From: Chrysophaeum taylorii
Lineage: Eukaryota > Sar > Pelagophyceae > Pelagomonadales > Pelagomonadaceae
NCBI GenBank assembly: GCA_029834535.1
Contig: JAQMWT010000650.1
Span: 1-64,000 of the forward strand
Length of the DNA stretch: 64,000 bases
Reading direction: 5' to 3'
The translations under genes were made by a program, and so were the position numbers. Below are positions 6,828-36,561 of the stretch, one piece after another (position 1 is the first letter of the stretch; each line of letters begins with the position of its first letter). The notes beneath the pieces are model-generated. The model saw nothing but the letters and a program-made list of their open reading frames with translations, searched no databases and had not been told where the DNA came from.

Positions 6828-7142
6828 TGCAGAGCATTTAGCAAGCAGTGGTAAGTCACCTGGGAAACCATCCCGTCTCATCATGAACGTCTGGAAGTAT
6901 TTAATTCGGGGAATGGAAAGGTATGTTCCCCATATCCTCAGAACACGACAGGCGGCATCTAGAACTATACGAGAAAGGTAAAGTGTATAGTGCTACATAC
7001 CTCGGGACGCGCTAGACCATGATTATGAGCTTAAGCACAAATCAGAGGACTATTTGATTGTGTATAAAGGTAGAAGAAGAGTAAGGAAGAAATCACGTTC
7101 TCAACGGACGGATAATGGTAAGAGGCAGCAGACTTCTCTGCA
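6828..7142 (-). repeat. Copia-1 3' LTR
   Basis: The 315-bp repeat starts and ends with the inverted heptamer TGCAGAG/CTCTGCA. It aligns throughout with 18591-18912, differing by scattered substitutions and small indels, including a missing ACGTC near the left end. The minus-strand flank CTCGAGGGGG directly precedes it and is the likely polypurine tract. Confidence 0.85.
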
Positions 7143-7295: not shown

Positions 7296-8577
7296 TTAGG
7301 ACTTGGATTTGGTGGAACTGAGAGTCGACTTGACGCTTTTGAACAGAGCATTACGAAACACTGGTATAACAGACAGGGTGTTAGGGCTATCTGAGGTGGT
7401 GGACATCGTTACTGGTTCGAGAGTATCGGTATCGTCGTCGTCAGCTTCTGCAGTAAGGTGGTGAACACCAATAGCAGAATGGTGTGGTACCATGCGAAAT
7501 GTAAGTGCAGGTAAAGCATTCAGTATGGATGGCACCAATGAGTCAGGCTGTGGAGTATCCAGTTGTGTTTCCAATAAGTTGGACTCAGCGAACGGATATA
7601 ACTAACTAACTAACTTCAGACCTCTCCCGAGCATGGGAGCCAGGCCGGACCGACTGGAGCCAGTCCGGAATCACGGGCCTGTAGACGAGGAGCGCCGAAA
7701 GGTCGGTCGGCGGAGAGTGACCATCAAGCTTGTCGCAATGCGACGAGGAGACGAACGGATATGAGAAGATAGAAGGGTCTTCCGATTCACATGCTAAGGG
7801 AATGCTTTGAAGACACGAGAGCAGATTATCACGCAGATGATGGAGGTGATCGTCCGGGGAGGCGTGATTGGCGGCATATTGATCATAGGCTGTAAGCGTT
7901 AAACGAGACAGTAGCTCTGTGACCTTGTACAGTGTTATGAGTAACACGTGTGCATTGGCAGTAGGAGGAAAGAGCCGGTTCTCCAGGGAAGTGATTGAAG
8001 CAATGGCAGACTGTAGATCAGTGCGCAGAGATAGATTTTCAGCGCTGAGGGTGTTGATTTTGCGGATGTATAGGCGAAGAGTTTCCTGGAGTTGCTCGAC
8101 TTGCTGATGTAAGGCATCGACATCAACCGAGGCAGAAGAGGCAGGGTGAGTCGATGGCGAGGTTCTTTCCAGGGTAGGTTCTGATGTAGGAAGTGAGGAG
8201 TTTAACGACGTCTCGGTCAACACATGCTGTGTGAGTAGGGGGTATTTCGCGTTTAGAAAGCGCCGAAAGTCTTGATGTTCTGCCGGAGTATAAGTGGGGC
8301 CGAACATTACATCCAGGAGTGACGGCGGTTTTGTATCATCTGAGGATGATACGTAGTCGTCGAGATGTTGTACCCACGATTGGGCAGCAGTATTAATCAC
8401 ATGGTGGGATTTGGTGGGCTTGAACATAGCCTGAGCTTTACGACTCTGTGTTCGAACAAGAGTTACAAGAAAGTTAAGATGCTCAAGGTGCATTTGTGTA
8501 ATGCGCCGCATCATTGGGGGTGCTGTGAACAGAGAAGGGAATGTCGGGTGAAGGTGCGGGAGGTGGATGCTGTTCAT
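7296..8577 (-). CDS. Copia-1 ORF3: coiled-coil protein downstream of pol
   Basis: A 323-residue frame (8577-7606) plus its continuation (7574-7296) is split by a retroposon at 7600-7752. An N-terminal helical segment (HLEHLNFLVTLVRTQSRKAQ) is followed by a variant of the recurrent heptapeptide (LTETSLNSS, coding 8217-8197), then a clear heptad coiled coil (VDALHQQVEQLQETLRLYI) running into ENRLFPPTANAHVL. The acidic C-terminus contains EADDDDTD. The same architecture occurs downstream of RNase H in copia-2 (21180-23108), so it is a conserved extra ORF of this lineage. The N-terminal part with possible Cys pairs seen in copia-2 is missing here. I recognise no known domain; a structural or accessory role is a guess. 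Confidence 0.6.
7600..7752 (-). mobile_element. SINE-like retroposon copy 1, 5'-truncated, with target duplication
   Basis: It contains only the 3' part of the family, with the (CTAA)n tail at its left end. It is flanked by the exact 10-bp repeat GAACGGATAT at 7590-7599 and 7753-7762. Truncation at one end, a microsatellite tail at the other and a duplication of this size are the signature of target-primed retroposition. It interrupts ORF3 of copia-1. Confidence 0.75.
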
Positions 8578-10221
8578 AATCAGGAGGAGATTTAGAAATA
8601 AGATGAGGAAAAGTCAGTTTAGAAGAAACACGGACTTGCCCGTTTTCAGGATTAAGGACAACATCGGCTAAATGATTAACATGAGGTGTTATTAAAGGGT
8701 TTATAACGTTAGCACCACATAAGTAGATGTAGGGACGACATCGGGGTTCATATTTATGAAATTCGTTAGGTTCCAAACGCAGATAACAAACAGAACCAAA
8801 AGGTTTGAGGTAGTCCTGTTGGGGAACATTACATTGGTCTAACAAAACTTGTTTGGGGCTTAGGACTTTATTGTAAATACGTTCGAGGGAAACATTAGGG
8901 AGGAGATTATACGATTGGATGGCATGTATAACAGCCCACGGGTAGTGTGGTGCCGGGTCTGTTAGGGGGTGACCTTTATAGGATACATTAAGCATATGCC
9001 GGAGTCGTGTAGACGCGGCAGTGGCCATGTGACCAACAGCGGCTTCTACTTCATGATTAAAGACATGTAAGTAAGGGGGGAACGCGGACATGTTAATACC
9101 ATGTTCCACACGAAAGGGGGTTGTTACATGCTGAGATAAATAGGGTTTAAAGGAATCACAATAAATTTGTTTTAGTTGTACATGAACATAAGTAGAGCAA
9201 AAATTGCGGACAAACTCAAGTGCGTTACAAAATTCGCTGGAGTTAGTGCTACGACAAAAGTACACTAACAGAATTTTAGAAATTAGACACTTGAAGACAA
9301 TAATATGTCGAAAGGATCCCCATTCCGAGACCACAGAGACGCAACCACCGTCACATGCCCAAGCTTCACCAGGTCGAAAAATTTTTTCGAATGATGGTTG
9401 CTTGATAAGGTGGTGTGGGTGAGGAAAGCGTTTTTTATGAATCGTTCTTGCCCTTACCCTGATCGCCGACTGCGGTTGCGATGGAGGACGGTGCCTCCTG
9501 AATCCTGAGCCTTGTGAGGGCATCCGCCCTCCCGGCGTAGGCTGGCACCTATTCGCCTCCCGGGCGGGCCGGTTGGCAGCCGGAACGTTCGCAGTGGGAC
9601 GGGGTATGGCCGGGGGGCGAATACGGAAGGTTATCGACGAGTTGGTTGTCAGTCACATCGCGGTCTCCTCGTCGCATGGCGACAAGCTTGATGGTCACTC
9701 TCCGCCGACCGACCTTTCGGCGCTCCTCGTCTACAGGCCCGTGATTCCGGGCTGGCTCCTGTCGGTCCGGCCTGGCTCCCATGCTCGGGAGAGGTCTGAA
9801 GTTAGTTAGTTAGTTTATGAATCGTACAATCGACACAGAACTTACGGTAGGGTACGTCAGATGGGTGGTGTCCAGGACTGGCAATAACCCGAACAGATTT
9901 TATGGCTTGAGAATCACTGGAATGGTGAATGTTGTGAAAGTTAGTAGCTCGTTGTTGCGCATCTCGAAATGCAAGGGTGCCCCTGGCATGGACTTTCTTA
10001 TCGAAGGGCGCATGCTTTTCATGGAGCTGTCTTGGCGTTATGAAGGGTATTTGTTTTTCTTTATTAGGAGATGATATATCTGCGGATAGGATGTTAGAGA
10101 GGAAAGCATGAGCTACGGAATCAGTATGAAAAGAATTAAGTTCGTGGTTAGCAGTGATAGTATCACAACATGTGAGTTTTTTATTGGAGGTGTAGAACAT
10201 TGTTGCATACCACGCGAACAT
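8483..10221 (-). pseudogene. Copia integrase 2 (diverged second integrase inside copia-1)
   Basis: The upstream half (10221-9826) holds the zinc-binding region, with FHNIHHSSD and KFCVDCTIH providing the HH and CC. The downstream half (9433-8483) holds the catalytic core with WACDGG (first Asp), IYCDSFKPY (second Asp) and FNHEVEAAVGH (Glu), ending NPENGQVRVSSKL. The retroposon at 9446-9813 splits the two. It is visibly homologous to integrase 1 (11608-13371) but clearly diverged, so this is not a recent duplication. It occupies the place where RNase H should follow the reverse transcriptase, and its 3' end runs into ORF3. This suggests recombination or template switching between subfamilies. 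Confidence 0.75.
9446..9813 (+). mobile_element. SINE-like retroposon copy 2, full-length, with target duplication
   Basis: The 368-bp copy begins near CTTACCCTGATCGCCGACTG and ends in (GTTA)n. The 12-bp direct repeats TTTATGAATCGT at 9434-9445 and 9814-9825 flank it exactly, and removing one copy plus the insert rejoins the integrase-2 sequence. No polymerase III boxes or tRNA similarity could be recognised, so 'SINE-like' rests on size, tail and duplications. Open frames inside it on both strands are not credible genes. Confidence 0.75.
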
Positions 10222-11438
10222 CTGCCCAAGGCTTGCGAGAAGTCAGGTCTGCAGGCAACTTGCATGAACACCAGCTTGCCAAGGAGGGTGGCAAAGTGCG
10301 AATTGATGTACAACTCTGCTTCAGTGCTGGGAGTGCCATCTTTATACTTGAAGGACGATGACATAGGATATTTAAGCGGGGTCAGTTGCTGCAAGACTGG
10401 GTGATCAGCGAAGAGTTCATCCAGCTTGGCTTGCGCATCCAGAGAAATGGAGCCGTCAGATGTGTGACACACACGCATGCCTAGGAGGGTATGGACAGGT
10501 TCAAACTGCTCTACAGCATACCGTTTGCGGAGGGCATCCTGTAATTCAGTACGAAGAGGGTCGTCATTGGACACAATAACAATGTCGTCTACACACAGAC
10601 TGCATACGACGAACTTAGCATGTGCGGAAACTCGAGCATATAGGCAAGAGTCCGAATGCAGGCGTTTGTAGCCAAGGCTACGGAAGAAGCCGTCTATCTC
10701 TTTGTTCCAAAGGGATGGTGATTGCCTGAGTCCATAAAGTGACTTCAGCAGTTTCGGTAGACGTCGGCCCTTGTACTTAGCGTCATCGGGGTCGATAAGC
10801 TTGATGCCGTCTGGTAACTGAACATAGACATTGGCATCGATGTCAGTCTGAACGAAGGCGTTCGGGACGTCTGCATGGTAGACAGGCAATTGCTTGTATG
10901 CTGCAATAGCTAGTAGTACCCGGATTGCGGTCATGGTGGCCATGGGGCTGAAGGTACCAAAGAAATCGGCGCCAAGAGATGCTAGGAAGCCACGTAGTAC
11001 GAGGCGAGCCTTGTGCTTAACGTATTTGCCTGCAGAGTCTGTTTTAATCTTCAGCACCATCTTGCTGTCAATAGGACGAGAGACACCGTCGGGTAAGGAA
11101 AGTTTGAAGCAGCCAATGCGGATAATGTCGTGGAGTTCCTTGGCGATGGCCTTGAGGTAGGCGTGCCTGTTTTCATGCGACAAACCGTGGAGGCACTTAA
11201 GTTTGTATTCGTCAATGGAAACGTCCGCTTCTTGGACCTTATATTCGCCAGGACCAACAATGGCTGGTGAATTATAGTTTAGCGACGTTGCGGTCGAGGC
11301 AGTGTGCGCAACTTCGGGATAAGCGGAAACAGCGTCAGTAGGAGTAGTAGGGGCAGATTCCAGTTGGATATGGATAGTAGGGTCGGTACGTAAGACCAGG
11401 GTGATAAACTCTGTAGAGACCAGAAGGTATTCCTCCAA
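10200..11438 (-). CDS. Copia-1 reverse transcriptase domain
   Basis: The element's RNA-dependent DNA polymerase shows the copia signatures. The N-terminal palm reads LKIKTDSAGKYVKHKARLV, motif A YHADVPNAFVQTD carries the first catalytic Asp, the fingers/palm contain SLYGLRQSPSLWN, and motif C LCVDDIVIVSND carries the Asp pair. The C-terminal connection has LGKLVFMQVACRPD and ends at LGRCSRGM. The frame stays open into integrase-2 sequence, so no RNase H follows. Upstream, after a frame change in the integrase-reverse transcriptase linker, a copy of the recurrent motif (TATSLNY, coding 11294-11274) marks the domain junction. The polymerase core itself has no visible lesion. Confidence 0.9.
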
Positions 11439-11607
11439 GTCAGCCAGAGATGCAGAAGTAGCGCCAAACTCGGATGAGTTGTGATCAATAAAGCTGGTCG
11501 GCGCCAGGTACGTAAGTGCATATTGTAAGGAAGAAGTGCCGAAGGCAGCAGCGTGTTCAGTGAACGCAGATAAAAGGGGCTGAGGAATAGGGCACGCAGG
11601 TGAACCA

Positions 11608-13371
11608 TCAGCAGTTAAAAAGGCTGCAGCTGGGATGCTGGATGCGCACTTGGCGTGGGCGAAGTAACCATAGACGAGCTAACAACGCATGTTCCCCCTC
11701 TGTGCAGATAGCAGACCAGAGGATACCACCACGGATATGAAGGGTGGAGAGGGTGGGAGATTCGAACGTAAGAAAGTGGTGGCGAAGACCCCAGCGGAAA
11801 TCGGCGAGCTTGCCACCAGCGGCTTTGCAAGCACCAATAGTAGACGCTTGTAACCGGGCTCGGATAGTTTTCATAGAAGTGGCCTTGCGGGTGTTAGGCT
11901 GTTTGGAACCTGGGACAAGAATGAGGTCATCTTGTGCAAAAAGGTCTTTGTAAGAAGGAAGCAAGGGCGGCGGTGACATAGAGCCAGAATCGTCGGCGAG
12001 AGTGTTAGAAGAGGGAGAAGAGGCAGGAGTAGGGGACGAAGAAGGAGCTGAAGGAGGTGGGGAGTGCCCCCTCTGAGGATGAGGAGTCCTGGTCCCCCTC
12101 TGAATGACATGGTCTTGGATAGTGGTGTGGGGTGTGAGCGAGAAAGGCGCGGAAGGAGCATGATGCGGAGGAGCTAGTTCAGGATCAGGAGTAGGATGCT
12201 GCAACATGTAGAGGAATTGCAGCTTGGACGAGACACGAATTTGTCCGTTTTCAGGGTTGAGGACGACGTCTGCGAGATGGTCGACGCGTGGGGAGACGAG
12301 CGGGTTTTGCGCGTTGGCGCAACAGAGATACAGATATTGGCGTCGGCACGGTTCCCACTTGTGGTGTTCATGGGGCTCCAATAGGAGGTAACATTCAGCG
12401 TCAAAAATCTTGAGCATATCGTGTTGGGGAGTGTTGAGTTGGTTGTAGAGTAGCTGTTGCGGACTCAGAATAGCATGATGAATGCGCTCGAGCGTGGCGT
12501 TCGGGAGAAGGTTATAGCTTTGAACGGTGTGTATCACCGCCCATGGGAACATGATAGCGGGTTCCACGATCTTGGCGCCACGATAGTGAGCATTAAGGAG
12601 AGAACGAAGGCGAGTTGAGGAGGCGGAGGCGATGAAGCCGATGGCAGACTCAACTTCAAAGTTAAAGTGGTGCATGTACGGCGGGAAGGCAATGAGTTGA
12701 ATGCCCTTATCGACGCGGTACGGGGAGGTAATGTGCTGGCTAAAGTAGGGCTTGAATGCATCGGAGTAGAGGGTGCGCATGTGCACGTTGAGTTGTGTAC
12801 GACAGAAGTCATACACAAAATCCAGAGCTTGAGTGAACTCCGTGGCGTTGGTGGTGCGTGTAAAGTACACCAAGAGAAATTTCGAAATGAGTTCCTTGAA
12901 GACGATGATATGTGTGAAGCCTCCCCATTCGGATGGGATGGTCACATAGCCGCCGTCGCACGCCCAGACTTCGCCGGCTTTGTGAGTTTGCTCAAAAGAA
13001 GGCTTGGTCGCATTGAAATGCTTGTGCGGGTGGCGCTTGTTGTGTGCGATGCAGTCGGTGCATAAGTCGCGATATGGTATGTCAGAAGCAGAGAATCCAG
13101 GGCGAGCAAGTACGTTGGGGGCCTTGGCAGCGACGTTGTCGGGGCAGTGATGCACCCGGTGAAAGCGATTGGCACGTTCTTTGGCATTGAGATATTCGGT
13201 GGATCCGTGTGCGAGGGACTTACGAGGAATGGGATGAGCGGGAATGTGCCGTTTGCGCCGAACATCGAACTTGAGTTCGGTGTCTAAGGCAGGGTCACTT
13301 GGAGGTGCATCCTCATCATCACGAGAAACGAGAGTATCTTCGCAGGACGAAGATATATAGTTTAACGACAT
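11608..13371 (-). CDS. Copia-1 integrase 1
   Basis: 587 codons follow immediately in frame after the TAA ending the methyltransferase segment. The HHCC zinc region is HRVHHCP then RDLCTDCIAH. The catalytic core has WACDGGY (Asp), LYSDAFKPY (Asp) and FNFEVESAIGF (Glu), then the C-terminal region NPENGQIRVSSKLQF and a Pro/Ser-rich linker towards the reverse transcriptase. The second Asp motif lacks the usual DNGxEF form of copia integrases, so this is a diverged lineage. The first codon used is the ATG created within the recurrent motif (T-stop-M-S-L-N-Y); in the ancestral polyprotein this was probably internal. Confidence 0.85.
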   Translation of the reverse strand: MSLNYISSSCEDTLVSRDDEDAPPSDPALDTELKFDVRRKRHIPAHPIPRKSLAHGSTEYLNAKERANRFHRVHHCPDNVAAKAPNVLARPGFSASDIPYRDLCTDCIAHNKRHPHKHFNATKPSFEQTHKAGEVWACDGGYVTIPSEWGGFTHIIVFKELISKFLLVYFTRTTNATEFTQALDFVYDFCRTQLNVHMRTLYSDAFKPYFSQHITSPYRVDKGIQLIAFPPYMHHFNFEVESAIGFIASASSTRLRSLLNAHYRGAKIVEPAIMFPWAVIHTVQSYNLLPNATLERIHHAILSPQQLLYNQLNTPQHDMLKIFDAECYLLLEPHEHHKWEPCRRQYLYLCCANAQNPLVSPRVDHLADVVLNPENGQIRVSSKLQFLYMLQHPTPDPELAPPHHAPSAPFSLTPHTTIQDHVIQRGTRTPHPQRGHSPPPSAPSSSPTPASSPSSNTLADDSGSMSPPPLLPSYKDLFAQDDLILVPGSKQPNTRKATSMKTIRARLQASTIGACKAAGGKLADFRWGLRHHFLTFESPTLSTLHIRGGILWSAICTEGEHALLARLWLLRPRQVRIQHPSCSLFNC

Positions 13372-15282
13372 TTAGGTCAAGCAGTTGCTGGAAATAGACA
13401 TCATAAAAGCTTGTGCTAAAGACAAGGTATCTGTGCTGCACGTGGTGGAAGCTTGATTAATGGTCATGAAATTGGATACATAGGATTTCTTAGTCACTGC
13501 AGCAGTATGTTGGAAGGTAGGGTCCAACATAAGGGATTTAATATCGGCAACGAGGAGCGAAAGGTGCTTGTACAGAGTGCTGTACGTACCGGCAGGCAGA
13601 GCATTGCTGAGCATGTCACAGCAAAGGTCATGGCGTAGAGACAATAGGAAGGATTCCTGTTGTTTGGTGTGGTTGTTAGCACGAATCAACTCCGGTCGAG
13701 TGGGGTAGCGTAATTTTCCGTTGCGAGGGTCAAGTAAAATAATATTGGCATACCCTCGGACGGTTGGCAATGGAGCAAGCACTGAGTGGATTTTAGAGCC
13801 GAGTTTGCGGTCACTTCCACGAAGATACCCTATGTAGCGACTATGAGATAAGTGGTGATCTTCCAGAGCAAAATGAGAGTCCTTGTAATCGAAAAAGTTG
13901 TCGGTGGCCTTGTAGGTAAGGCGGCCAGGCATCACAAGAGAGCATCTGGACAAGAGTTTTTGTATGGCGGTGCCATAGGTGGCAACGGAGCCAACTTGGG
14001 GAAGGGCTTGGACTATCCACAAGTAACCCATAAACGGCTCCAAATATATGGACCTGTCCCGGTCGCGGGGGATGTCGGAAGCCGTGAACGTATACGTGCT
14101 TCCAAACGCTTTGATGGGAGTTTGATTTTCGGTGGTGGCGTTCTCTATGGTGAGGTTGCCGTCAGAGTGGTGGCCACCAGTTAAGAAGTAGGAGTTGTGT
14201 GATGTTGATGAGGTTGTAAGTAATAACCTGTGTGACGGTTGCTTAGTTTCGAAAACGGTTATGTAATAGGACACCGGCGTGGGTGAGTTAGTATGTAGGC
14301 TTGCAAACACGTTATAGAGGATTGTAAAAATCTTGACGTGTATAGGATGTGTTGCATTGGGTAATGGCTCCATAGAGGGGCGTTTAAAGCACAACTGATG
14401 ATAAGTACACTCGGATTGAACAGAGTGAGTACGTTGTTCGTGAGCCTGTTGTGAGTGAAGGCGAAGCAGTAACATATTGAGGGATGCAAGGTCAGCCATA
14501 GTAAGCTGAGCAGAACCTGTGCGAGAGTAAGGTGCAAAAGTTTTAGGAACGGGGACATATGGAGGATCGGGGAACACCCGGATCCAGTCTTTGGATACGT
14601 GGTTAGGTAGCCAAAGGCGCTTGGGAATAGCTTGTAGATCATCCACGATCTTTAGGAAGGGGCGTGGATGGAGGATGGGCCACGACAATAGTTTAATTGG
14701 CCCAGTAGAATATCTGCGTGCGATGCATATCCATCGTTCTCTAGATTGGTAGTCGCCACAGAGGTAGGTCGGGAACCTATCAACAACATCGACACAGTGA
14801 TCAAGCGTTGCATATATAAGGTTAGCCACTATGATGTGGTCTTGATGACAGTACTTATGAGGAGGCGTCATCTCAGCCAGTAGTACCAAGGGCTGGAGTA
14901 GCTTGATGACAGACAACCTGTTGTCGAAAAGAGTGTCGTCCAGCAGGCTGTGTAAGTCGTCTGTCTTATGCTGTTTTAGTAAATTCCTGTTTGTGCAGGG
15001 GGGAGTGATCTCAATTATATCACAATAGAATGTGCGCCTTTCCTCTGGTGAGATTAGGTGAAGGTGGTTAATAAAGGCGGGGAGAGATTCAAATAATAAT
15101 ACAGTAGGAAAACGGTGGCGTGACATACGAACAAGCGTATCATCAGACTCAACAACAACTTTTACATTGATATTTATGCCTAAGTCATTTGTGGCTTGAG
15201 ACAGGAACGCCGGAGTTGACAAACCAGAACAAAGTAACATGACAGAGGGTTTGCGGAGATTGGACTCTTGCGAGAGAAACAC
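13372..15282 (-). CDS. Cytosine-C5 DNA methyltransferase-like domain in copia-1
   Basis: 636 codons in the same frame as the protease segment before it and integrase 1 after it. The ordered C5-methyltransferase motifs are visible: motif I VMLLCSGLSTPAF (residues 14-26), motif II VVVESDD (42-48), motif IV ITPPCTNRN with the catalytic-type Pro-Cys (Cys96), motif VI LLAEMTP (ENV-type Glu137), motif VIII GDYQSRERWICIAR (QxRxR, 176-189), a variable region as target recognition domain, motif IX-like LRYPTRPELIR (about 524-534) and motif X-like MLSNALPAG (about 556-564). The family transfers a methyl group from S-adenosylmethionine to cytosine C5. Methyltransferase-bearing retrotransposons are known from dinoflagellates and charophytes. 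Activity here is inference; the C-terminus ends at the recurrent motif. Confidence 0.82.
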   Translation of the reverse strand: MFLSQESNLRKPSVMLLCSGLSTPAFLSQATNDLGININVKVVVESDDTLVRMSRHRFPTVLLFESLPAFINHLHLISPEERRTFYCDIIEITPPCTNRNLLKQHKTDDLHSLLDDTLFDNRLSVIKLLQPLVLLAEMTPPHKYCHQDHIIVANLIYATLDHCVDVVDRFPTYLCGDYQSRERWICIARRYSTGPIKLLSWPILHPRPFLKIVDDLQAIPKRLWLPNHVSKDWIRVFPDPPYVPVPKTFAPYSRTGSAQLTMADLASLNMLLLRLHSQQAHEQRTHSVQSECTYHQLCFKRPSMEPLPNATHPIHVKIFTILYNVFASLHTNSPTPVSYYITVFETKQPSHRLLLTTSSTSHNSYFLTGGHHSDGNLTIENATTENQTPIKAFGSTYTFTASDIPRDRDRSIYLEPFMGYLWIVQALPQVGSVATYGTAIQKLLSRCSLVMPGRLTYKATDNFFDYKDSHFALEDHHLSHSRYIGYLRGSDRKLGSKIHSVLAPLPTVRGYANIILLDPRNGKLRYPTRPELIRANNHTKQQESFLLSLRHDLCCDMLSNALPAGTYSTLYKHLSLLVADIKSLMLDPTFQHTAAVTKKSYVSNFMTINQASTTCSTDTLSLAQAFMMSISSNCLT

Positions 15283-15297
15283 TGGGCGCGAGAGTAG

Positions 15298-17001
15298 TCA
15301 AGTTAATGGCTGCGTATTTTCCTGAACAAACTTGTTCTGTTTCCGAAGATTGAGAACCAAAGGGCGAATCCACGGGCGATCTGGTAAAACTCTTTGGAGT
15401 AGGTAGTTGTAGTATGCCAGTAGATCCCTGTTTTTATGGTATCGCTTGAGGGGAAATGCGAGAGAGCGAAGTTTCAGCTGCTTGTCGCGCGCGATGTTGT
15501 AAGTGAGACAAGGGAGAGCGGGTAAATTAGCTGCTACGTAGTGTATGGGTATACGTACATCTTTGTCTATGCGGCTCGTGACAGCGCTGAGCTTTGGCTC
15601 AGCTCGATCATTGAACACGGTGGTAAGATTCGTCTGGTTCCACTCGAGCATGCTCAGGATAGCGAGATGTCGGTCATGCACTGGCTGAAGACATAAAGCG
15701 AAGTCGATCTTAACATAGCCAACTTGTGGATGATCTGGTAGGGGAACAACAATGTTACGTGTTAACATCATGCGTGATGCCCGTTGTTGTCCTGTAGCCG
15801 TCTGAATAACAATCGGCGCGTATTTGGAATCCAATGGAATTATATGATTGGGTATTGCAAAATCGTAAGTGGACATCAATGAGATGGTAGCACAAGAGTC
15901 AAAATATAGAAAAGAGCAATGTGGAGGGACACTGTTTACCTTCATGTAGTTGGTGAGGAAGGCGTTTTCCGAATGTGGGCAAGTAGTGGAGAGGCTGGCT
16001 GTGAAGAAGTTCTTCAGCAATAACAGATTCGTTGGAATAATAATCGGTTGAACAGGTGGTGATGGTTCGTCAGCCTCATCAGCCATGCCGTGCTTTTCAT
16101 CAAATGACGATAGCGAAGTATGATCGGCATTCCTTTTGGTTTCGGCTTGTGGTGGTGTGTTGAGGGCAGATTGGACCTGTGAAGATAGCGAGGACAATAA
16201 TGCTGGTGGTAAAGCCGAGATGGCGGAAGCGGTAAAGAGGTTAGACACAGTATTGGAAGGATTACCCTGTGTGTTTGTAGTAGGAGGAGTTGTCTTTGGG
16301 GTGGGAGCAGTAACAACAGTATGGTGTTGTGGCTCCACGTAGTTTAACGACTTTTCGGTCGAGGATAGATGAACGTCTACATCACAAATGATGTCTTCTG
16401 CAAACATGAGCTGTTCGTTTAGACGAAGTAAACTACTGTTGTCCTCAGTAGATGTCGTTGACAGAATGTCAGCTGATTGTAATAGAGTCTCAAATAACTT
16501 GTCGATATTGTGTTGTAGCTGAGCCGTGGTATCATTATCTGTCACATGCTTCGTGAGTTCGCTACACTGTTCTCGCAGGGTGTTTAAGGTGTGGTTTGTT
16601 CGATCTAATAATTTCATGTTAGACCGAGAGGACCTGTCAAAAGTGCGGGGGTAAATTGGACGGTCATGGGACTGTCCGGCAGTTTTCTTGGTGACGTAAG
16701 AATCACCAGGACGATAATACGATAAATCGCTGCGAGAGAAAGGCTGGCGAGCATCATTAGAGTTACGCAAGCGTCTAGCATTAAACGTGGAAGATGTACC
16801 AGGTTGGGACGAAGTGATGAAGGCGAGTGTGTTAGCAGTTTGAGTCAGACTTTTGTCTGATGAGTCCAAAGTGTGTGTAAGTAGTAACTTTGGCTTTGGT
16901 CGAGATGATAAACCTTCGACATAGGGTTGCCAAGAAACAGGGCGTTCTAAACGTCTTTGTTCGACCCATTTGATGCGACATTGTAAAGGTCTAATGCGCA
17001 T
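15298..17001 (-). CDS. Copia-1 protease region
   Basis: 567 codons. The N-terminal half is Arg/Ser/Thr-rich and contains the recurrent motif as STEKSLNYVEP (coding 16359-16339), followed by a Thr/Pro linker. The second half holds a retropepsin-like aspartic protease: LYFDSCATISLMS corresponds to the copia D-S-G-A-T-S motif with Cys replacing Gly, followed by IVIQTATGQQRASRMML. The frame ends in TGA (15298-15300), and the same frame reopens directly into the methyltransferase segment with only five codons before its first ATG. The stop may be decay or a readthrough point. The DSC variant is unusual but the Asp is present. Confidence 0.72.
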   Translation of the reverse strand: MRIRPLQCRIKWVEQRRLERPVSWQPYVEGLSSRPKPKLLLTHTLDSSDKSLTQTANTLAFITSSQPGTSSTFNARRLRNSNDARQPFSRSDLSYYRPGDSYVTKKTAGQSHDRPIYPRTFDRSSRSNMKLLDRTNHTLNTLREQCSELTKHVTDNDTTAQLQHNIDKLFETLLQSADILSTTSTEDNSSLLRLNEQLMFAEDIICDVDVHLSSTEKSLNYVEPQHHTVVTAPTPKTTPPTTNTQGNPSNTVSNLFTASAISALPPALLSSLSSQVQSALNTPPQAETKRNADHTSLSSFDEKHGMADEADEPSPPVQPIIIPTNLLLLKNFFTASLSTTCPHSENAFLTNYMKVNSVPPHCSFLYFDSCATISLMSTYDFAIPNHIIPLDSKYAPIVIQTATGQQRASRMMLTRNIVVPLPDHPQVGYVKIDFALCLQPVHDRHLAILSMLEWNQTNLTTVFNDRAEPKLSAVTSRIDKDVRIPIHYVAANLPALPCLTYNIARDKQLKLRSLAFPLKRYHKNRDLLAYYNYLLQRVLPDRPWIRPLVLNLRKQNKFVQENTQPLT

Positions 17002-17087
17002 TCTAAAATGTAGCTAGGGTTGGTAGGGTGACACAATCGTTTAGCTCTTGGCACAGGTCGAGATGAAGATCGGATTTCGTACATATA

Positions 17088-18161
17088 TCACCAATCTACC
17101 CAACCACGATCGTAACGGTTGTTGCTGGTATTATCGGCATAATGCCGATGTATCTCTTCATAGATTTCCCTGCAAAGAGTGCCAAAGTCGAATTGAAGGT
17201 CAGTCTCTTCCTGGTTAAGTTGGTAAGAGATTTGCCTAAATGCTAGGACAGCTTCGATAAATACATGGACATACCAGTTAGGATTATAAACAACAGAGTT
17301 AAATTGCTGTTTCAAATAAGACACATCAGTAGTCGTAACAGACTCGTAGTGACTAAAGGCGATGAGCATAATAGCTCGAGCCTTGTTGGGTAAATAACTT
17401 TTTTTGTATACCTCATTGATGGCGGGCCAGGCCGCAAGTGCCGGTTTTCCAACACTTTCAAGATTGAAGTAAGTATGCAAGAATGTAGCGTACGTGTTCT
17501 GGTAAGTGTGCCAGTCAGCTGCAGTTAACGAAAACATGGTAACCGGGGCACGAACACGGGTGTCGAAAGCTAGTGCCTTCGGGTGCGCGCGATTTAAGAT
17601 TCGTTCCTCTTCTAAGAAACGAGCATTGATTTCAGGACGTAATGCCTTGACTTCATAGTCGTAACAGACAGTAGTTAGCTGAGCTACTTCTGCATCAGGT
17701 AAGTGGGGGAAAGCTTCGTTGGTGAAATGCCATTCCTGATACTCAGGGGGCAGTTCATCAACAGCTAAACGGAGATCAGCAGCCCTATCGGTCTTCCATT
17801 CCAGGAAAACGCGATCGAGAATTTGATTCCGGAGGATCTCGTAGTCCTTGCATGACCGAGTATATGCTTCGTACGAGTCATACTCGAGGAAAGCATCGGC
17901 ATGACTGGACCGTAATAATTGCTTAGTGTGTTTGATTTGCAAGGATACCTTGCGGTTCTGAAGCTGAAATCGGTTTCCTTCATTAAGAAACTCAACTACA
18001 GGAGCTTCGAGCTTCAATATATCCGCACCTGTGATCGCCTTGGGTGCGGCTCGTGCTGCGTGTTCTGCCATAGCAGTTGACGGGGAACCTGTGGGTTCAG
18101 TCACGCAGTTGACACTGTCTAGACATTCTAAGGGGGTCTGTCTATCGGTGTCTATGTACAC
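17088..18161 (-). CDS. Copia-1 Gag
   Basis: 357 codons in the first large frame after the 5' LTR and leader. The protein is largely helical with no membrane segment; blocks include QLLRSSHADAFLEYDSYEAY, ILDRVFLEWKTD and MFSLTAADWHTYQNTY. No CCHC knuckle is seen, and Gag and protease are in different frames separated by about 90 nt, so expression of pol would need a frame change. It is called Gag by position and helical capsid-like character, not by a recognised motif. Confidence 0.6.
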   Translation of the reverse strand: MYIDTDRQTPLECLDSVNCVTEPTGSPSTAMAEHAARAAPKAITGADILKLEAPVVEFLNEGNRFQLQNRKVSLQIKHTKQLLRSSHADAFLEYDSYEAYTRSCKDYEILRNQILDRVFLEWKTDRAADLRLAVDELPPEYQEWHFTNEAFPHLPDAEVAQLTTVCYDYEVKALRPEINARFLEEERILNRAHPKALAFDTRVRAPVTMFSLTAADWHTYQNTYATFLHTYFNLESVGKPALAAWPAINEVYKKSYLPNKARAIMLIAFSHYESVTTTDVSYLKQQFNSVVYNPNWYVHVFIEAVLAFRQISYQLNQEETDLQFDFGTLCREIYEEIHRHYADNTSNNRYDRGWVDW

Positions 18162-18590: not shown

Positions 18591-18912
18591 TGCAGAGCAT
18601 TAGCAAGCAGTGGTAAGTCACGTCACCTGGGAAACCACCCCGTCTCATCATGAAGGTCTGGAAGTATTTAATTCGGGGAATGAAAAGGTACGTTCCCCAT
18701 ATCCTCAGAACACGACAGGCGGCATCTAGAACAACACGAGAAAGGTAAAGTGTATAGTGCTACATACCCCGGGACGCGCTAGACCATGATGATATGAGCG
18801 TAGGCGCAAATCAGAGGACTATTTGATTGTGTAGAAAGGAAGAAGAAGGGTAAGGAAGAGATCGCGTTCTCAACGGACGGAATAAGGGTAGGCGCTAGCA
18901 GATTTCTCTGCA
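18591..18912 (-). repeat. Copia-1 5' LTR
   Basis: The 322-bp repeat runs TGCAGAG to CTCTGCA. It aligns with 6828-7142 over its whole length and with the copia-2 LTRs mainly over their first half. Its left end abuts the primer site, and its right end is five bases (GGGGG) from the inverted copia-2 LTR. Confidence 0.85.
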
Positions 18913-18917
18913 GGGGG

Positions 18918-19231
18918 TGCAGAGAAATCTGCTAACTCCTACCCTTATTCCGTCCGTTGAGAACGCGATCTCTTCCTTACCCTTCTTCTTCCTTTCTACA
19001 CAGTCAATTAGTCCTCTGATCTGTGCTCGCGCTCATCATCATGGTCTAGCGCGTCCCGGGGTATGTAGCAATTACACGTTACCCTGATGTGTTGCTATGT
19101 ATCGCCCGTCGTGTGAAGAGGCTAGGGGGACCACTGCCTGGGTTCCCTGAAACCTACAGATTGCCAGAATCACGCGGTGAGACGGGATGGTCTCTCAGTG
19201 ATCTAACCACTGCCTAGCGGAATACTCTGCA
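18918..19231 (+). repeat. Copia-2 5' LTR
   Basis: 314 bp. The first 150 bases are nearly the same as the copia-1 LTR, the rest diverges but matches the copia-2 3' LTR at 23339-23651. It stands head-to-head with the copia-1 5' LTR, forming an imperfect palindrome centred on GGGGG at 18913-18917. Confidence 0.82.
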
Positions 19232-20783
19232 GTTTCTTAGCCTCGCTCGGCGCCGACTTCTTTGGGACGTTTAGTCCCATGGCGACGATGACTGCTATAC
19301 GTGTCATCCTTGCCATTGCTGCTTACAAGAACCTCCCCGTGTACCACGCCGACGTGCCCAACGCGTTCGTCCAGTCCGACATCGACGCGCACGTCTACGT
19401 CCAGCTTCCCGATGGCATCAAGTTTTTTGATCCTCAAGACGACAAATATCGTGGTCGCCGCTTACCCAAGTTGCTTAAGTCTCTCTACGGACTCAGGCAA
19501 TCTCCCTGTCTCTGGAACGAGGAGATCGACAGCTTCTTTTGGAGTCTTGGGTACAATCGAATACATGCGGACACGTGTTTATATGTTCGCACCTCTACTC
19601 ACGCTCGATTCTTAATCTGTAGCCTATATTTGGACGATATCGTCATAGTTGCTAACGACGATACCCTGCGCACAGAGCCCCAATATGGCCTACACAAACG
19701 TTTCTCCGTGTAACAATTCGAACCAGTCCACACACTCCTGGGAATGCGCGTCTGCAGAACGTCGGATGGATCGGTATCTTTAGACGTCCAAGCCAAACTC
19801 GATTCTCTGTTCGACGATCACCCTATCCTGAAAACTCTCACCCCTTTGAAGTATCCTATGTCATCAACGTTTACCTACAAAGATGGCTCTCCTTCTACTG
19901 ACGTGGAAATCTACATCCACAACCACTTCGCTACACTACTTGGCAAATTGGTATTTATGCAAGTCGCCTGCCGCCCAGACTTATCTCAAGCTCTAGGACG
20001 TTGTTCCAGAGGTATGCACTCTCCTACTTATGTGCATGTTCAGGTGCCCTGCCACCTCCTAAGGTACATCAGCAAACCAGAAAACAGAGCTATTCGTCTT
20101 TGGTTTCACCCTAAAGGCAACGCTATCGAAAATCACCTGCGCATCATCTCCGCTAATCGAGTTGACTTATCGACCATAGTCGACTATCAGGATAAAGATG
20201 TTGCTACTGGCAAGTTCGACCCCCTGGTTGCTATGGTAGATGCTGACAATGCTCCTTCACTTGAACAGGAAGATAGGAAGTCCACTACTGGCTTTGTCTT
20301 CTACTTGTTCAACTGTCTCATCGCTTGGAAAAGCAAATTACAACCTATCGTCTCGTGTTCTACCCACGAAGCTCGTTGCACTAAGCATTTGCGCTGACGA
20401 AGCAGTCTGGCTCCGTAAACTACTTCTTGAGCTCTCGTTTGTGATTAATCCAACATTATACATCAACACGCAAGCTGATCCTCCATCCGATTTTGATGCA
20501 GACGACAATCCTATTGCAGAGAATATGCGCTTCATTAGGAGCCTACCTCTTTTGTATGACTGCCGCTGTCCACACTTCCAATAACCCTGACGGCTCTTCT
20601 CGTAGCAAAGCCCTGTCTACACGATGGTTCAAAATTCGCGAGTACGTCGCATTGCAAAAGATTCGCGTCCATCATGTTCCTGGCAAATTAAATGTTGCTG
20701 ATGGCTTTACAAAACCCCTTGCAGCCGACTTTGCTACGTTTCGCTCTCTTCTAGGTATGCATCATGCTACTGATTCAGACCAA
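19232..20783 (+). pseudogene. Copia-2 reverse transcriptase and RNase H, broken
   Basis: The reverse transcriptase retains YHADVPNAFVQSD, SLYGLRQSPCLWN and LYLDDIVIVAND, then an in-frame TAA at 19711-19713 followed by continuation in the same frame (LLGMRV, LGKLVFMQVACRPD). RNase H is recognisable: VAMVDADNAP, DRKSTTGFVFYL, SCSTHEA, then after frame changes at about 20390 and 20540 the end VHHVPGKLNVADGFTKPLA. This provides the RNase H that copia-1 lacks. Not functional as read. Confidence 0.85.
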
Positions 20784-20790
20784 GACAAGA

Positions 20791-21152
20791 CTAACTAACT
20801 AACTTCAGACCTCTCCCGAGCATGGGAGCCAGGCCGGACCGACAGGTGCCAGTCCGGAATCACGGGCCTGTAGACGAGGAGCGCCGAAAGGTCGGTCGGC
20901 GGAGAGTGACCATCAAGCTTGTCGCCATGCGACGAGGAGACCGCGATGTGACTGACAACCAACTCGTCGATAACCTTCCGTCTTCGCCCCCCGGCCATAC
21001 CCCGTCCCACTGCGAACGTTCCGGCTGCCAACCGGCCCGCCCGGGAGGCGAATAGGTGCCAACCTACGCCGGGAGGGCGGATGCCCTCGCAAGGCTCAGG
21101 ATTCATGAGGCACCGTCCTCCATCGCAACCGCAGTCGGCGATCAGGGTAAGG
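20791..21152 (-). mobile_element. SINE-like retroposon copy 3
   Basis: Full-length copy with the (CTAA)n tail on the left and CAGGGTAAG on the right. The 7-bp direct repeat GACAAGA flanks it (20784-20790 and 21153-21159). It lies between RNase H and ORF3 of copia-2. When it is ignored, the RNase H frame continues into the recurrent motif at 21180-21200. Confidence 0.72.
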
Positions 21153-21179
21153 GACAAGAACCAATCACTAACCCTGGCG

Positions 21180-23108
21180 ACCGCATTGTCGTTAAACTAG
21201 CCCTCATTTTTTTGCCACTGCCATTACTCGTACGTCGCCGATGCAGCATCAGCCCTGGCGAAGCTTTCCACGAGGAGTCACGCCCGCTCGTCGCGACCCT
21301 CCTCGCACGCTTGCTCCTGTGGAGTCTTCTGTCAACACTCCCCCTAGTCGCAGGAAGCCGAACCGCGAGGACATTACACGGTTACTGTCTACCTCCGCCT
21401 CTGCGATGCGTGCTGACTCAAGCTCACCAACTACACTCGCTGACGCCATCAACTTTAATAACAACCATTTAGAGCAAGGTCTACCTGTTGCAGACGAAAA
21501 GCTTCGTCCACCTCTAACCAACATTCTTTCCTCCTTTCTGCGCACCGATTTACAGGATGCAATTGACTCTGTGTGCGCATCACAGGATCATATAGACCAC
21601 CAGGTCTATATGGAGTTATGAAACGTTGTTTCCATTCGCACGCCTGTTATCTTACCCTTACCGTCCGCTCCCTTCATCCACGCTACCTTCTGCTATCGTG
21701 GTGCGAATAAAGATACACAGCAAGTTTCCATTCATTGTTTGCAGTGTCTCGACAAAGAAGGAAAGCCACATCAAAATTGTGTCACAGTTTACAAGAAGAA
21801 GATGGATGAAATTCCCGCCAGTGTTCTTGAACACTTAGCCAGTGCTATGCACGTCGGGAATGCATTCATACCTATCTCTGCCTCAACTCTTTCCTTATGC
21901 TGCGCTTGCCATAGCACTACAAGCTTCATATTCTTCGCAAGGAATGCGTCTATTACGGCCTTCCCTTGTGAGTCACCTCCGGCTGGTCATCTACGTGCTA
22001 CCATCCGCCGCGTTTGTTTCCTTCCTTCGGATATCCAAGCGCTGCTGCAAGAAATATCGAAACAACACACTTTACCTACCGACATTATTATGCCGTCTAT
22101 GCTTGTTACCGATCCTGACCAAACTCCTTATCCATCTGACTTGAAATACCTGTCCAGATTACATCTGGTGCATTTGTCGTTTATCGTGACGGTTGTGCGT
22201 ACACATGCGAAGAAACAATCGATTATCAAGACAACTGCTTACAAGCCATTTGTACGAGTGATTTCTCGCTCCCTCATTCGACACATTGCCGACTACAATT
22301 CACTTGTTGATGAAGAAAAGCCACCTTCGGTCTTTGAAGAGATTCAATCCGCTACTACGCTCACCGAGGCTGAACGCAAAGACTTTGCAAAACTGCTATC
22401 CTCCAAATACCATCAGCTTTATGCTGAACTTACCGCTGCGACCGAAACGTTGTTAAACTACCCGCCAACGGACCTACTGCCCCGGCACCAGCTACAACCT
22501 CCTCCTCAGACGTCGACATCTTATCATCCCACGTAAGGCGTCTTACACAGCAGGCTGAGACGCTTCAGATCTCACTTGACCAGCACACTCGACGACTTCA
22601 CGCCTTAACAACCGAGAATGCCGAACTACGATCTGACTTGCATAATGCTGTCACAAATATTAGTGACATGGAGAATCGGCTATTCCCAGCCACTCCCAAC
22701 ACCAATATTCGGCCGGTGACTCTATTCAAAGTGTGCGAGCTACTCAACAGGCTCACTCTCGCTCTGAATGACCGACATGACGTAATGTTTGGATTGCCCG
22801 ATGATGCTCTCATTCAACTCAGAAATGAGATAATTCGCACGACGCATCATCCATCCTTGCAACAAACTGAGTCACTTCAAGACCCTTTTACTACTCCTCA
22901 ATTCATTGAGGATCACCTCGATGAACTGCAATTGAGCAGTCTCATCCCACAGATCTTGAATCAACTACTCGCTCTTACTCACCGAATTATACCTCAACAT
23001 TATTCCGCAAAGAGCGTCAGTCCTTCTTCTGAACATCCTGAGGATGATGACGCTCCCGCTATATGTGAGATCCCTGAGGATCAAGCAATCTCCTCACGTC
23101 AACGTTGA
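21180..23108 (+). pseudogene. Copia-2 ORF3: Cys-pair and coiled-coil ORF, frameshifted
   Basis: The segment starts at a motif copy whose Tyr codon has become TAG (ACC GCA TTG TCG TTA AAC TAG). Frames 21241-21621, 21739-22536 and 22638-23108 together cover an N-terminal region, a possible zinc-binding stretch (HCLQCLDKEG and later LSLCCACHS), a helical block (LHLVHLSFIVTVVRTHAKK) matching copia-1 ORF3, a second motif copy TETLLNY (22441-22461), and the coiled-coil region leading to ENRLFPATPNTNI. The acidic tail (HPEDDDAP) is also shared. This copy shows the N-terminal part lost from copia-1. Function unknown. Confidence 0.6.
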
Positions 23109-23338
23109 CTTCTACCTCACATTCGCTTCCTTCTTTCAAAGCTTCTCTCGCCAGAAGCATTCAGAGTGTTACCTCTCTGACCAAGTCCAAGTCCGGACAC
23201 CTTCGTGTCTGATGATGAACCTGTTGTGCCACTTTATGTGACCTCTGAGGTGAACTTCTTCTTCATCCCGATCTCGTCCTTCTTATCACATTTCTCAAGA
23301 GACATCATGTTGCTCTGCCGGTTGACATCTCGAAGAGG

Positions 23339-23651
23339 TGCAGAGAAATCTGCTAACTCCTACCCTTATTCCGTCCGTTGAGAACGCGATCTCTTCCTTA
23401 CCCTTCACCTTCCCTTTCGCACAATCTATTAGTCCTCGGAATTGTGCTCTAGCTCATCATCATGGATTAGCGCGTCCCGTAGGGATGTAGGACCACATGT
23501 TAACCTAGGTGTGTTTCTATGTATCGTCTGTCGTGTGCTGAGGCTAGGGGAACCTAACCTTGTTCCCTGAACTCTACCCTGCCAGACTCACACGTTGAGA
23601 CGGGATGGTCCTTCAGTGACTTAATACCACTGCCCTGCGGAATACTCTGCA
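23339..23651 (+). repeat. Copia-2 3' LTR
   Basis: 313-bp LTR preceded by the purine tract CTCGAAGAGG (23329-23338). It matches 18918-19231 with moderate divergence. The 230 bases between the end of ORF3 and this LTR hold no recognisable gene. Confidence 0.82.
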
Positions 23652-28650: not shown

Positions 28651-29024
28651 GCCTTTCCCTTACCCTGATCGCCGACTGCGGTTGCGATGGAGGACGGTGC
28701 CTCATGAATCCTGAGCCTTGCGAGGGCATCCGCCCTCCCGGCGTAGGTTGGCACCTATTCGCCTCCCGGGCGGGCCGGTTGGCAGCCGGAACGTTCGCAG
28801 TGGGACGGGGTATGGCCGGGGGGCGAAGACGGAAGGTTATCGACGAGTTGGTTGTCAGTCACATCGCGGTCTCCTCGTCGCATGGCGACAAGCTTGATGG
28901 TCACTCTCCGCCGACCGACCTTTCGGCGCTCCTCGTCTACAGGCCCGTGATTCCGGACTGGCTCCTGTCGGTCCGGCCTGGCTCCCATGCTCGGGAGAGG
29001 TCTGAAGTTAGTTAGTTAGTTAGT
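28651..29024 (+). mobile_element. SINE-like retroposon copy 4
   Basis: Full-length family member from CTTACCCTGATCGCCG to GAAGTTAGTTAGTTAGTTAG. It is inserted after CCAGTAAG of a Helitron-A terminus, and the interrupted Helitron sequence resumes at GCGCCGAATTTACTG. Target duplication not clear. Confidence 0.65.
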
Positions 29025-29129
29025 TTGCGCCGAATTTACTGGGGTTAGAGATTGGGACTAGGTGAACTTAACGGGAACAGGTGAACTTGCTGGGGTTAGA
29101 GATTGGGTCTAGGTGAACTTACTGGCCTG

Positions 29130-29420
29130 CTAACTAACTAACTAACTAACTTCAGACCTCTCCCGAGCATGGGAGCCAGGCCGGACCGACAGGAGCCAGT
29201 CCGGAATCACGGGCCTGTAGACGAGGGGCGCCGAAAGGTGGGTCGGCGGAGAGTGATCATCAAGCTTGTCGCAATGCGACGAGGAGACCGCGATGTGACT
29301 GACAACCAACTCGTCGATAACCTTCCGTCTGCGCCCCGCGGCCATACCCCGTCCCACTGCGAACGTTCCGGCTGCCAACCGGCCCGCCCGGGAGGCGAAT
29401 AGGTGCCAACCTACGCCGGG
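29130..29420 (-). mobile_element. SINE-like retroposon copy 5, 5'-truncated
   Basis: The (CTAA)5 tail is on the left, and the family sequence ends at CTACGCCGGG, short of the full 5' end. No duplication was recognised. It lies in the same Helitron unit as the previous copy, in opposite orientation. Confidence 0.65.
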
Positions 29421-35583: not shown

Positions 35584-36561
35584 ATGTCGGCCACCGAGCT
35601 CAAGGACGCACGGAAGCGCCTGCCGGACATCGTCAACCAGCTCCGCACTTTCAACCCCGACGGTGATGCGGTGGAGGACGCGACGCACCTGCGACACCTC
35701 GAACAGGACGTCGTGGACTACGCCCAGTTCCTGGCTGACGCCACCGGCCCCATCAGGCTCCCACCGTTGACGCCCGAAGCCGACCTGTTCCTGCTCTGCC
35801 TCCTGCGCCGCGGCACCGCGGCGGAGGCGCAGCGCATTGTCGACTGCTGGCAGACTGGTGCCGACGCTTTGGACCGCCTACGCCAGCGCTTCGCCTTCAA
35901 CAGCAAGACCGAACTCCGCCAGCATCTGCACGATCTGTCCTTCGTCTCGTTCGGCACGCCCGACCTTTACCTCGCGGCCTTCGAACGTAACATCACGGCC
36001 CTTGAGGCACTGGGCGACACATTCACCGACACGGATCGCATGCTCTACTTCCTCGAGGGCCTCAAGGGACCCAAAGGGGGGGGTGACCTGGCGGAATCCC
36101 ACCGTCTTCTCGCGATTGAATCCGCCCGGACAGGCACCTCGTACGACACCTTCATTAAGGTCTTCACCACGTACTGCCGCAACGCCGATATCAGCCGCGG
36201 CGGCTCTCGCGCACGCGCCCGCCAGACCGCCGCGCAAACTGCTGCCCCGCCCGGCCGCACCACGCTCAACTACGACTTCCGTCCGGACTGGACCCCAGTC
36301 CCGTTCTGCAGCAAGTGCTACGGGCTCTTTCACACCGCCCGCATATGCCCTGCCGACATCACGAGCCGTGTGCCGTGCGGAATCTGCCGCTTCCCCACCC
36401 ACACCACCGACAACTGCGCGCTCAAGACTCCCGGCTGGCAGCCCGGAGACGTCCTCTCGATCCGCGACCTCCGCAAGTTGAGGACTTTCCGCTCCCGGGA
36501 CGTGCCACCCGCCCGCCGCGCCGCCCCATCAGGCGCCCCCGCCGGCCCCGCAGGCACCTGA
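35584..36561 (+). CDS. Copia-3 Gag with two zinc knuckles
   Basis: 325 codons from the ATG at 35584, 60 nt after the 5' LTR. The helical N-terminal and capsid-like region contains LRQRFAFNSKTELRQHLHDL and FTDTDRMLYFLEGLKG, the latter typical of copia Gag (UBN2-type). Two CCHC knuckles follow: CSKCYGLFHTARIC and CGICRFPTHTTDNC. Just before them is TTLNYDFRP, an echo of the TETSLNY motif but not at nucleotide level. The stop is at 36559-36561, and pol continues in another frame. Confidence 0.85.
   Translation: MSATELKDARKRLPDIVNQLRTFNPDGDAVEDATHLRHLEQDVVDYAQFLADATGPIRLPPLTPEADLFLLCLLRRGTAAEAQRIVDCWQTGADALDRLRQRFAFNSKTELRQHLHDLSFVSFGTPDLYLAAFERNITALEALGDTFTDTDRMLYFLEGLKGPKGGGDLAESHRLLAIESARTGTSYDTFIKVFTTYCRNADISRGGSRARARQTAAQTAAPPGRTTLNYDFRPDWTPVPFCSKCYGLFHTARICPADITSRVPCGICRFPTHTTDNCALKTPGWQPGDVLSIRDLRKLRTFRSRDVPPARRAAPSGAPAGPAGT

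Follow-up and report, generated by a model that had tools for sequence, protein, structure and literature searches.

A copia retrotransposon of Chrysophaeum taylorii with a predicted cytosine-C5 methyltransferase between protease and integrase

DNA methyltransferases (DNMTs) carried within retrotransposons are known from LINE, DIRS and Gypsy elements, in which they are under purifying selection, and de novo methylation of CG sites has been shown for retrotransposon DNMTs (PMC5890265). KnitGypsy-Dnmt3 of Klebsormidium nitens is a long terminal repeat (LTR) element with a C5-methyltransferase (MTase) inside its Pol open reading frame (ORF), and SymbioDIRS-Dnmt3 and SymbioLINE-Dnmt of Symbiodinium are many-copy retrotransposons with MTases, that of SymbioLINE-Dnmt forming an orphan lineage (PMC5890265). 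Cytosine methylases in Ty3/Gypsy and DIRS elements are also reported in PMC6338049. Here we describe a Ty1/copia LTR retrotransposon, present as a decayed copy on the minus strand of a 64,000-nucleotide stretch of DNA from the pelagophyte Chrysophaeum taylorii (assembly GCA_029834535.1, contig JAQMWT010000650.1, positions 1 to 64,000; hereafter the window), in which a 641-codon segment between protease and integrase is predicted to encode a C5-MTase.

The element shares with KnitGypsy-Dnmt3 its LTRs, the placement of the MTase within Pol and the purifying selection upon it. KnitGypsy-Dnmt3, however, is a Ty3/Gypsy element with a DNMT3 (PMC5890265), whereas the window element is of the copia type (RVT_2), its MTase finds no DNMT3 among its matches in the PDB, and Pol opens with this MTase after a conserved UGA. 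The Symbiodinium elements differ in class, SymbioDIRS-Dnmt3 being a DIRS element with a tyrosine recombinase and SymbioLINE-Dnmt a LINE, and the copia elements of Symbiodinium lack a DNMT domain according to the same paper (PMC5890265). The first-pass annotation of the window, drawn from its letters alone, held that MTase-bearing retrotransposons had already been described in dinoflagellates and charophytes; the known ones are LINE, DIRS and Gypsy elements (PMC5890265), not copia. A single sentence of PMC12344493 places DNMT3 members inside LTR Copia and DIRS elements, but it does so for streptophytes and dinoflagellates with a citation of PMC5890265, where the LTR case is Gypsy, and its main text uses the word 'copia' a single time. 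The accessible portions of PMC9998398 and PMC3145265 mention no retrotransposon-internal MTase beyond citing PMC5890265 by title, and the titles and abstract openings retrieved by literature searches, outside subscription papers and supplements, name no copia element in which an MTase stands between protease and integrase.

What appears to be new, retrotransposon MTases as such being known, is a copia-borne MTase that is not recognisably DNMT3 and that occurs twice in one genome; it would extend retrotransposon-borne DNA MTases from LINE, DIRS and Gypsy elements to copia. In the layout of its coding regions the element recalls retroviruses of the murine leukaemia type, in which Gag and Pol lie in the same frame with one stop between them that is passed by readthrough. 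The window element likewise has one frame and one stop, with readthrough putative here; in these retroviruses the protease follows the stop, whereas in the window element it precedes the stop, with the MTase at the head of Pol.

The methyltransferase within the copia element

The segment had been read at first pass as part of a copia element rather than as a host gene in which the element had landed, and its recurrence bears this out. It gives 73 match rows in at least 69 places of the 70.8-Mb genome, a count that is a lower bound, with 69 of 1,628 candidates scored and some rows perhaps representing duplicate contigs. In a test of spacing, protease and integrase were searched separately and the MTase was not used as bait; 104 of 105 protease rows entered the test, one piece of a split copy being dropped, with 99 of 149 integrase rows, the others being further pieces of places already represented or short N-terminal fragments of them. 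A protease is accompanied by a same-strand integrase within 6 kb at 42 places, and the spacing is at least 1,561 bp in 41 of these and 1,904-1,984 bp in 29, the one short pair being 566 bp apart. A listed MTase row lies within 400 bp of the protease in 15 of the 42 pairs, and at 29 of the 104 protease places; for the others its presence is deduced from the spacing. Moreover, at locus L031 the MTase, integrase and reverse transcriptase (RT) share a single ORF of 1,691 amino acids (aa), in which Pfam places rve at 784-866 and SH3 at 968-1007, both below cut-off, and RVT_2 at 1431-1651, well above it, so that the integrase stands ahead of an RVT_2-type RT as in copia elements. A second family, described below, has the same order in a 1,952-aa ORF at L049. 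The genomic sequence thus supports the MTase as part of the copia element. That a retrotransposon struck a host MTase gene, or made one chance capture in one copy, has nothing in its favour but the stop codons that flank the segment in the window copy and is next to impossible; copy number, spacing and the one-ORF copies (L031, L049), joined by the shared order in the second family, rule out a host gene interrupted by the element. Smaller claims of the first pass need amendment: the segment is open between protease and integrase, but has 641 codons rather than 636, and it shares the frame of the flanking pol domains, but with two in-frame stops (TGA and TAA) it shares no uninterrupted ORF with them.

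In the window family the MTase is kept by purifying selection. Further copies with intact frames, which the first pass proposed to look for, exist: in 13 of 30 fetched loci (window copy included, as in all motif counts here) residues 5-637 run without a gap or a stop. When every stop-free copy is paired with every other, in pairs that are not independent, the median ratio of nonsynonymous to synonymous change (dN/dS) stands at 0.16 in the catalytic part, from 171 pairs among the 19 usable copies of 26, and at 0.24 in the C-terminal part (25 usable copies of 29), compared with 0.12 in the flanking protease region (10 usable of 15) and 0.24 in the integrase (8 usable of 12). The A/B subfamily medians show a similar picture, at 0.10 for protease, 0.12 for the catalytic part, 0.19 for the C-terminal part and 0.22 for integrase, but the labels are imperfect (L019, in B, has an A-like junction and L027, in A, a B-like one) and the all-pairs medians are preferred.

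The conserved residues lie in motifs of this family, the motif names being those in general use for C5-MTases. The ordered Pro-Cys, Glu and Arg of motifs IV, VI and VIII are invariant in an eight-row alignment of both families and P0001, a protein relative introduced below; the whole PPC is invariant with P0001, and the column of R188 is likewise unchanging across that alignment. Beyond motif VIII, R259, R530, N565 and P568 are kept in 30/30 loci, and T533 and E536 in 29/30. Motifs IV, VI, VIII, IX-like and X-like of the series proposed at first pass are real, their key residues being retained in 29-30 of the 30 loci; the cysteine then numbered Cys96 is C101. The gap from motif VIII to motif IX is long, about 340 residues, and it is between these motifs that the target-recognition domain of DNA MTases sits. 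Alignment of the C-terminal halves of the two families at the places of motifs IX and X implies that all 641 residues can be read as one MTase.

What is this enzyme most closely related to? The 641-codon segment is predicted to be a C5 METHYLTRANSFERASE, by a link that runs via relatives. Its sole match in 5.77 billion proteins is P0001, the 392-aa product of a transcript in MMETSP, a collection from marine protists (39% identity, E 1.5e-68); a repeat search with the enlarged alignment added P0002 (37% identity) and P0003. Against PF00145, with its curated cut-off of 22 bits, P0002 passes at 23.0 bits, while P0001 (20.2) and P0003 (17.7) fall below. With E allowed to reach 1, a joint profile of window family, P0001 and second family (A3) matches 20 distinct sequences of the PDB, of which 13 are C5-MTases, 4 are unrelated and 3 are DNMT1. 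The 13 rank first, as HhaI, HaeIII or 'cytosine-specific' enzymes (8yf3, E 2.3e-7; M.HhaI, 1.3e-4; M.HaeIII, 4.9e-4), followed by the unrelated sequences at 0.26 and DNMT1 at 0.32-0.34. Through these relatives the link to the C5-MTase family is significant, and other copies of the element carry the segment too, so that neither refutation named at first pass applies. No DNMT3 occurs among those 20 sequences, which suggests that the MTase was acquired separately from the DNMT3-type retrotransposon enzymes; on present matches it appears to belong to no recognised DNMT class. Scans for relatives confirmed none of the stretches that matched by pattern in viral contigs (67 and 35 in two scans) or in prokaryote species genomes (11), and 7,911 candidates include no homologue of polyprotein length at E up to 0.01.

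The second family gives 130 match rows with L041 as probe and 79 with L042, pieces of split copies included. A search of the genome with PF00145, scoring 123 of 474 candidates, returned at least 57 matches, 53 of which overlap second-family rows. Its MTase exceeds the Pfam cut-off (38.6 bits for L042, 32.1 for L049) and matches the NCBIfam dcm model at E 8.7e-9, under the strict cut-off of that model. The L049 ORF comprises, in sequence, DNA_methylase, integrase core (sub-cut-off) and RVT_2 (133 bits); upstream of DNA_methylase a DGGAS motif resembling that of a protease is discernible by eye, and no stop separates protease from MTase. The MTases of the two families are only about 18% identical. 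Comparison of family profiles brings motifs II to VIII into register with E 2.7e-4 but an hhalign probability of only 42%, and global hhalign of the full MTases gives E 0.48; the C half is weak in single-sequence hhalign (E 0.077). When a member of one family is aligned pairwise with a member of the other, on the other hand, the scores reach z 9.1 in the N half, 5.6 in the C half and 11.4 over the full length, and none of 300 shuffles attains them. BLAST of the window element's parts against L039-L048 finds only a dispersed repeat in common. A single genome thus holds two copia lineages, very distant from each other, whose homologous MTases occupy the same position, and the shared order of protease, MTase and integrase implies either an old association or its passage from one element to another. 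In the one copy at L049, a presumed Gag ORF, without a Pfam match, overlaps Pol by about 12 codons in a different frame, which suggests a frameshift instead of the stop of the window family.

The conserved UGA and the proposed mechanism

Between Gag-protease and MTase-Pol stands an in-frame TGA in 26 of the 27 readable loci (over 30 loci there are 26 with TGA, 1 with TGG, 1 without the codon and 2 without the site). The next codon is CTA in 16 of the 26 and ATG in 6; in human cells, stops with high basal readthrough have UGA CUA as their consensus (PMC4359377). Use of TGA as a sense codon was considered and rejected: the codon is a true stop, because conserved tryptophan columns use TGG (146 of 150 cells) and a host DNMT2-like ORF terminates in TGA. 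A stop common to nearly all readable copies, with low dN/dS on both sides, is the arrangement looked for in Gag-stop-Pol readthrough, and selection on both sides implies that MTase-Pol must be made past the TGA, by readthrough or by re-initiation. The conserved UGA suggests that the dose of MTase is set jointly with those of integrase and RT, and a shared dose points to a step of retrotransposition rather than to regulation of the host.

On balance, and with moderate confidence, we favour a copia Pol headed by its own C5 DNA MTase, made past the UGA and methylating new cDNA. A minority of ribosomes would pass the UGA, by readthrough in the UGA-CUA copies and by readthrough or re-initiation at the adjoining AUG in the UGA-AUG copies, and the resulting small dose of MTase, integrase and RT would be packed into Gag particles. 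Newly made cDNA could then have its cytosines methylated by the MTase, either within the particle or at the site of integration. The likeliest benefit would be that the new copy reaches the nucleus already carrying the host's own mark, which may shield it from attack on unmethylated DNA or damp its expression to a level that the host tolerates; host DNMT5 could maintain the mark afterwards. A mobile element could in this way write the very mark that cells use for silencing such elements.

Several observations tell against this proposal. The window MTase protein matches nothing in Pfam or NCBIfam, so that the Pfam comparison envisaged at first pass succeeds for P0002 and the second family but not for the window protein itself; among 11 scanned members of set A1, PF00145 is matched by P0001 only, below its cut-off. 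Searched against the PDB, the profile of the window family brings up no MTase, its best match being an unrelated protein at E 0.87, and the second-family profile alone finds nothing, so the link to PDB structures depends on the joint profile. AlphaFold models, with a mean predicted local distance difference test score of 35.4 for four sequences and 32.4 for one, lend no support to the fold, and motif I is degenerate (LLCSGLST). At the UGA, no stimulatory RNA structure is found 3' of the stop in four copies (z +0.2 to +1.5), though readthrough does not always need one, and the UGA-AUG copies lack the CUA context. A test for CpG decay among the copies is near-negative: C/T differences at synonymous third positions stand at 0.187 for CpG, 0.161 for CHH and 0.102 for CHG, an excess of CpG over CHH of only 1.16-fold, and the G/A test gives 0.130 vs 0.131. 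This speaks against heavy long-term CG methylation of the copies, or for efficient repair.

The same observations lend weight to other explanations, of which the most credible, with a substantial but lesser chance of being correct, is that the TGA is not bypassed and that MTase-Pol comes from a start of its own or from a spliced or shorter RNA. Candidate starts are the AUG adjoining the stop in some copies and an AUG at residue 20 in others; the TGA-ATG copies, the lack of RNA structure favouring readthrough and the fact that P0001 begins with Met at the corresponding place all fit such a start. The more numerous TGA-CTA copies do not, since those inspected have no in-frame ATG before residue 20, and the residue-20 ATG is itself absent from L021 and P0001-P0003; the reading frame, moreover, is identical on both sides of the TGA.

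As to what the protein does, it seems unlikely that the enzyme modifies RNA, whether the element's genomic RNA or the tRNA primer, as DNMT2 does, rather than DNA. An MTase packaged with Pol would lie beside the RNA and the primer tRNA, there is no clear CpG-decay signature, and RNA methylation has been raised for the LINE-borne enzyme, which is inactive on DNA in yeast (PMC5890265). Yet the joint profile matches DNA MTases such as HhaI and HaeIII, the host's DNMT2 is a separate gene that matches DNMT2 structures, and the long stretch between motifs VIII and IX is where a target-recognition domain is to be expected. More doubtful still is a domain of S-adenosylmethionine fold without enzymatic activity, retained in Pol for nucleic-acid binding or particle assembly; the degenerate motif I and the missing direct Pfam match would suit it, but a purely structural role is not expected to preserve the catalytic cysteine, and the Pro-Cys, Glu and Arg persist in 30/30 loci, even in stop-bearing copies, and in the very distant second family.

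Host methyltransferases and de novo methylation

Among the matches listed, the only host C5-MTases are DNMT2 and DNMT5, though DNMTs split by introns or among the unscored candidates could escape the search; the PF00145 rows C216 and C589 are placed neither as host genes nor in the second family. A search of the host for DNMT1-RFD gives no match, and its control likewise gives none. L040 is DNMT5, with a match to PDB 7r76 (labelled Rad8; E 3e-143), which we take to be Cryptococcus Dnmt5, and L039 is DNMT2 (PDB 1g55, E 3.9e-39). L039 adjoins a light-harvesting gene whose closest chains are VCPI, PCPI and FCP, which points to an alga of the chlorophyll-a/c type, perhaps an ochrophyte. Family 1 has an observed-to-expected CpG ratio of 0.96 and family 2 one of 1.05, compared with 1.26 and 1.46 at the host MTase loci, which differ from the elements in base composition.

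In Cryptococcus, DNMT5 is a maintenance enzyme with no de novo activity (PMC9246332). Could the retrotransposons then supply the host's de novo cytosine methylation, the elements writing on their own cDNA and DNMT5 copying the mark onward? The idea follows from the detection of only DNMT2 and a maintenance-type DNMT5 beside the MTases of two copia families in well over 100 places, that of family 1 being under selection; we give it little credence, but if it were true the parasite would be the writer of the host's silencing mark. Were the element enzyme active, the origin of de novo methylation in organisms limited to a maintenance-type DNMT5 would become testable.

Organisation of the window element and its surroundings

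The features of the window element are collected in Table 1. Its LTRs, with the TG...CA ends and the purine tract that are hallmarks of copia elements, are 90.7% identical, and the outer boundary of the 5' LTR agrees to within 3 bp at loci L032, L033 and L037. In this copy, which is rearranged, the 5-bp flanks differ and show no target-site duplication. Damage is evident throughout: the Gag frame is shifted relative to that of the protease, where locus L034 has a single 960-aa Gag-protease ORF; the TAA that ends the MTase is replaced by a sense codon in 28 of 29 readable loci; and the RT is frame-shifted from the integrase and truncated near 10204, where homology with most of eight long loci ends. 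On the minus strand at 8486-10242, the integrase of a relative (59% identical) replaces the end of RT and RNase H, as a chimaera or nested fragment.

Table 1. Features of the copia element in the window (oriented on the minus strand)
Feature	Position	Strand	Remarks
5' LTR	18591..18912	-	~320 bp; ends TGCAGAG...CTCTGCA; LTR pair aligned
Gag part of ORF1	17091..18161	-	assigned by position; no Pfam match
Protease part of ORF1	15301..17013	-	assigned by motif and position; no Pfam match
DSCAT, active-site-like motif (retropepsin-like region)	about 15886-15900	-	in 24/25 loci readable there
In-frame TGA, then CTA	15298..15300	-	between Gag-protease and MTase-Pol
Predicted C5-cytosine MTase	13375..15297	-	641 codons; N-terminal part of Pol
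Motif IV PPC (P99-P100-C101)	14995..15003	-	putative catalytic cysteine; 30/30 loci; Pro-Cys invariant in second family too
Motif VI glutamate E142	14872..14874	-	30/30 loci; invariant in second family
Motif VIII QSRER (184-188)	14734..14748	-	Q184 and R188 30/30 loci, R186 29/30
Motif IX-like RYPTRPE (530-536)	13690..13710	-	aligns with RYATLNE of second family
Motif X-like NALP (565-568)	13594..13605	-	aligns with NAVP of second family
TAA	13372..13374	-	MTase-integrase junction; window copy only
Integrase, core and SH3-like domain	11611..13371	-	PF00665 (rve) E 0.003, PF25597 E 0.0048, both under curated cut-offs
Reverse transcriptase, copia type RVT_2	10116..11678	-	PF07727 E 1.6e-42
ORF3	7609..8613	-	follows RNase H in L038
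3' LTR	6828..7142	-	preceded by purine tract; same TGCAGAG...CTCTGCA ends

A third ORF with cysteine-rich stretches lies after RNase H, in the position of env, at L038 (8538-9623), at L035 (8962-9696, oriented) and in the window (ORF3 of Table 1). Window positions 8185-8508 match L038 at 87%, and in L038 this ORF directly follows RNase H.

A related element stands head-to-head with the window element on the plus strand at 18918-23651. Its LTRs (18918-19235 and 23339-23651) are 72-78% identical to those of the window family, and it contains RT (19207-20397) and ORF3-like frames; no Gag or MTase is found in it, and it is apparently internally deleted. A dispersed repeat resembling a miniature inverted-repeat transposable element, up to about 300 bp long, recurs at 7599-7752, 9520-9815, 20790-21094, 28716-29025 and 29132-29420; it is about 98% identical to a copy at L032, occurs in both orientations and is also found inside other element copies. 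A GC-rich ORF of 1,209 aa on the plus strand at 36482-40111 has a weak, sub-cut-off match to RVT_2 (E 3.1e-5), and four profiles find no MTase in it. On the minus strand, an integrase with an H2C2 zinc-binding domain and a p58-type C-terminus at 56951-58591 is presumably Gypsy-like, and Helitron-type Rep and PIF1-like helicase frames occupy 48355-52926.

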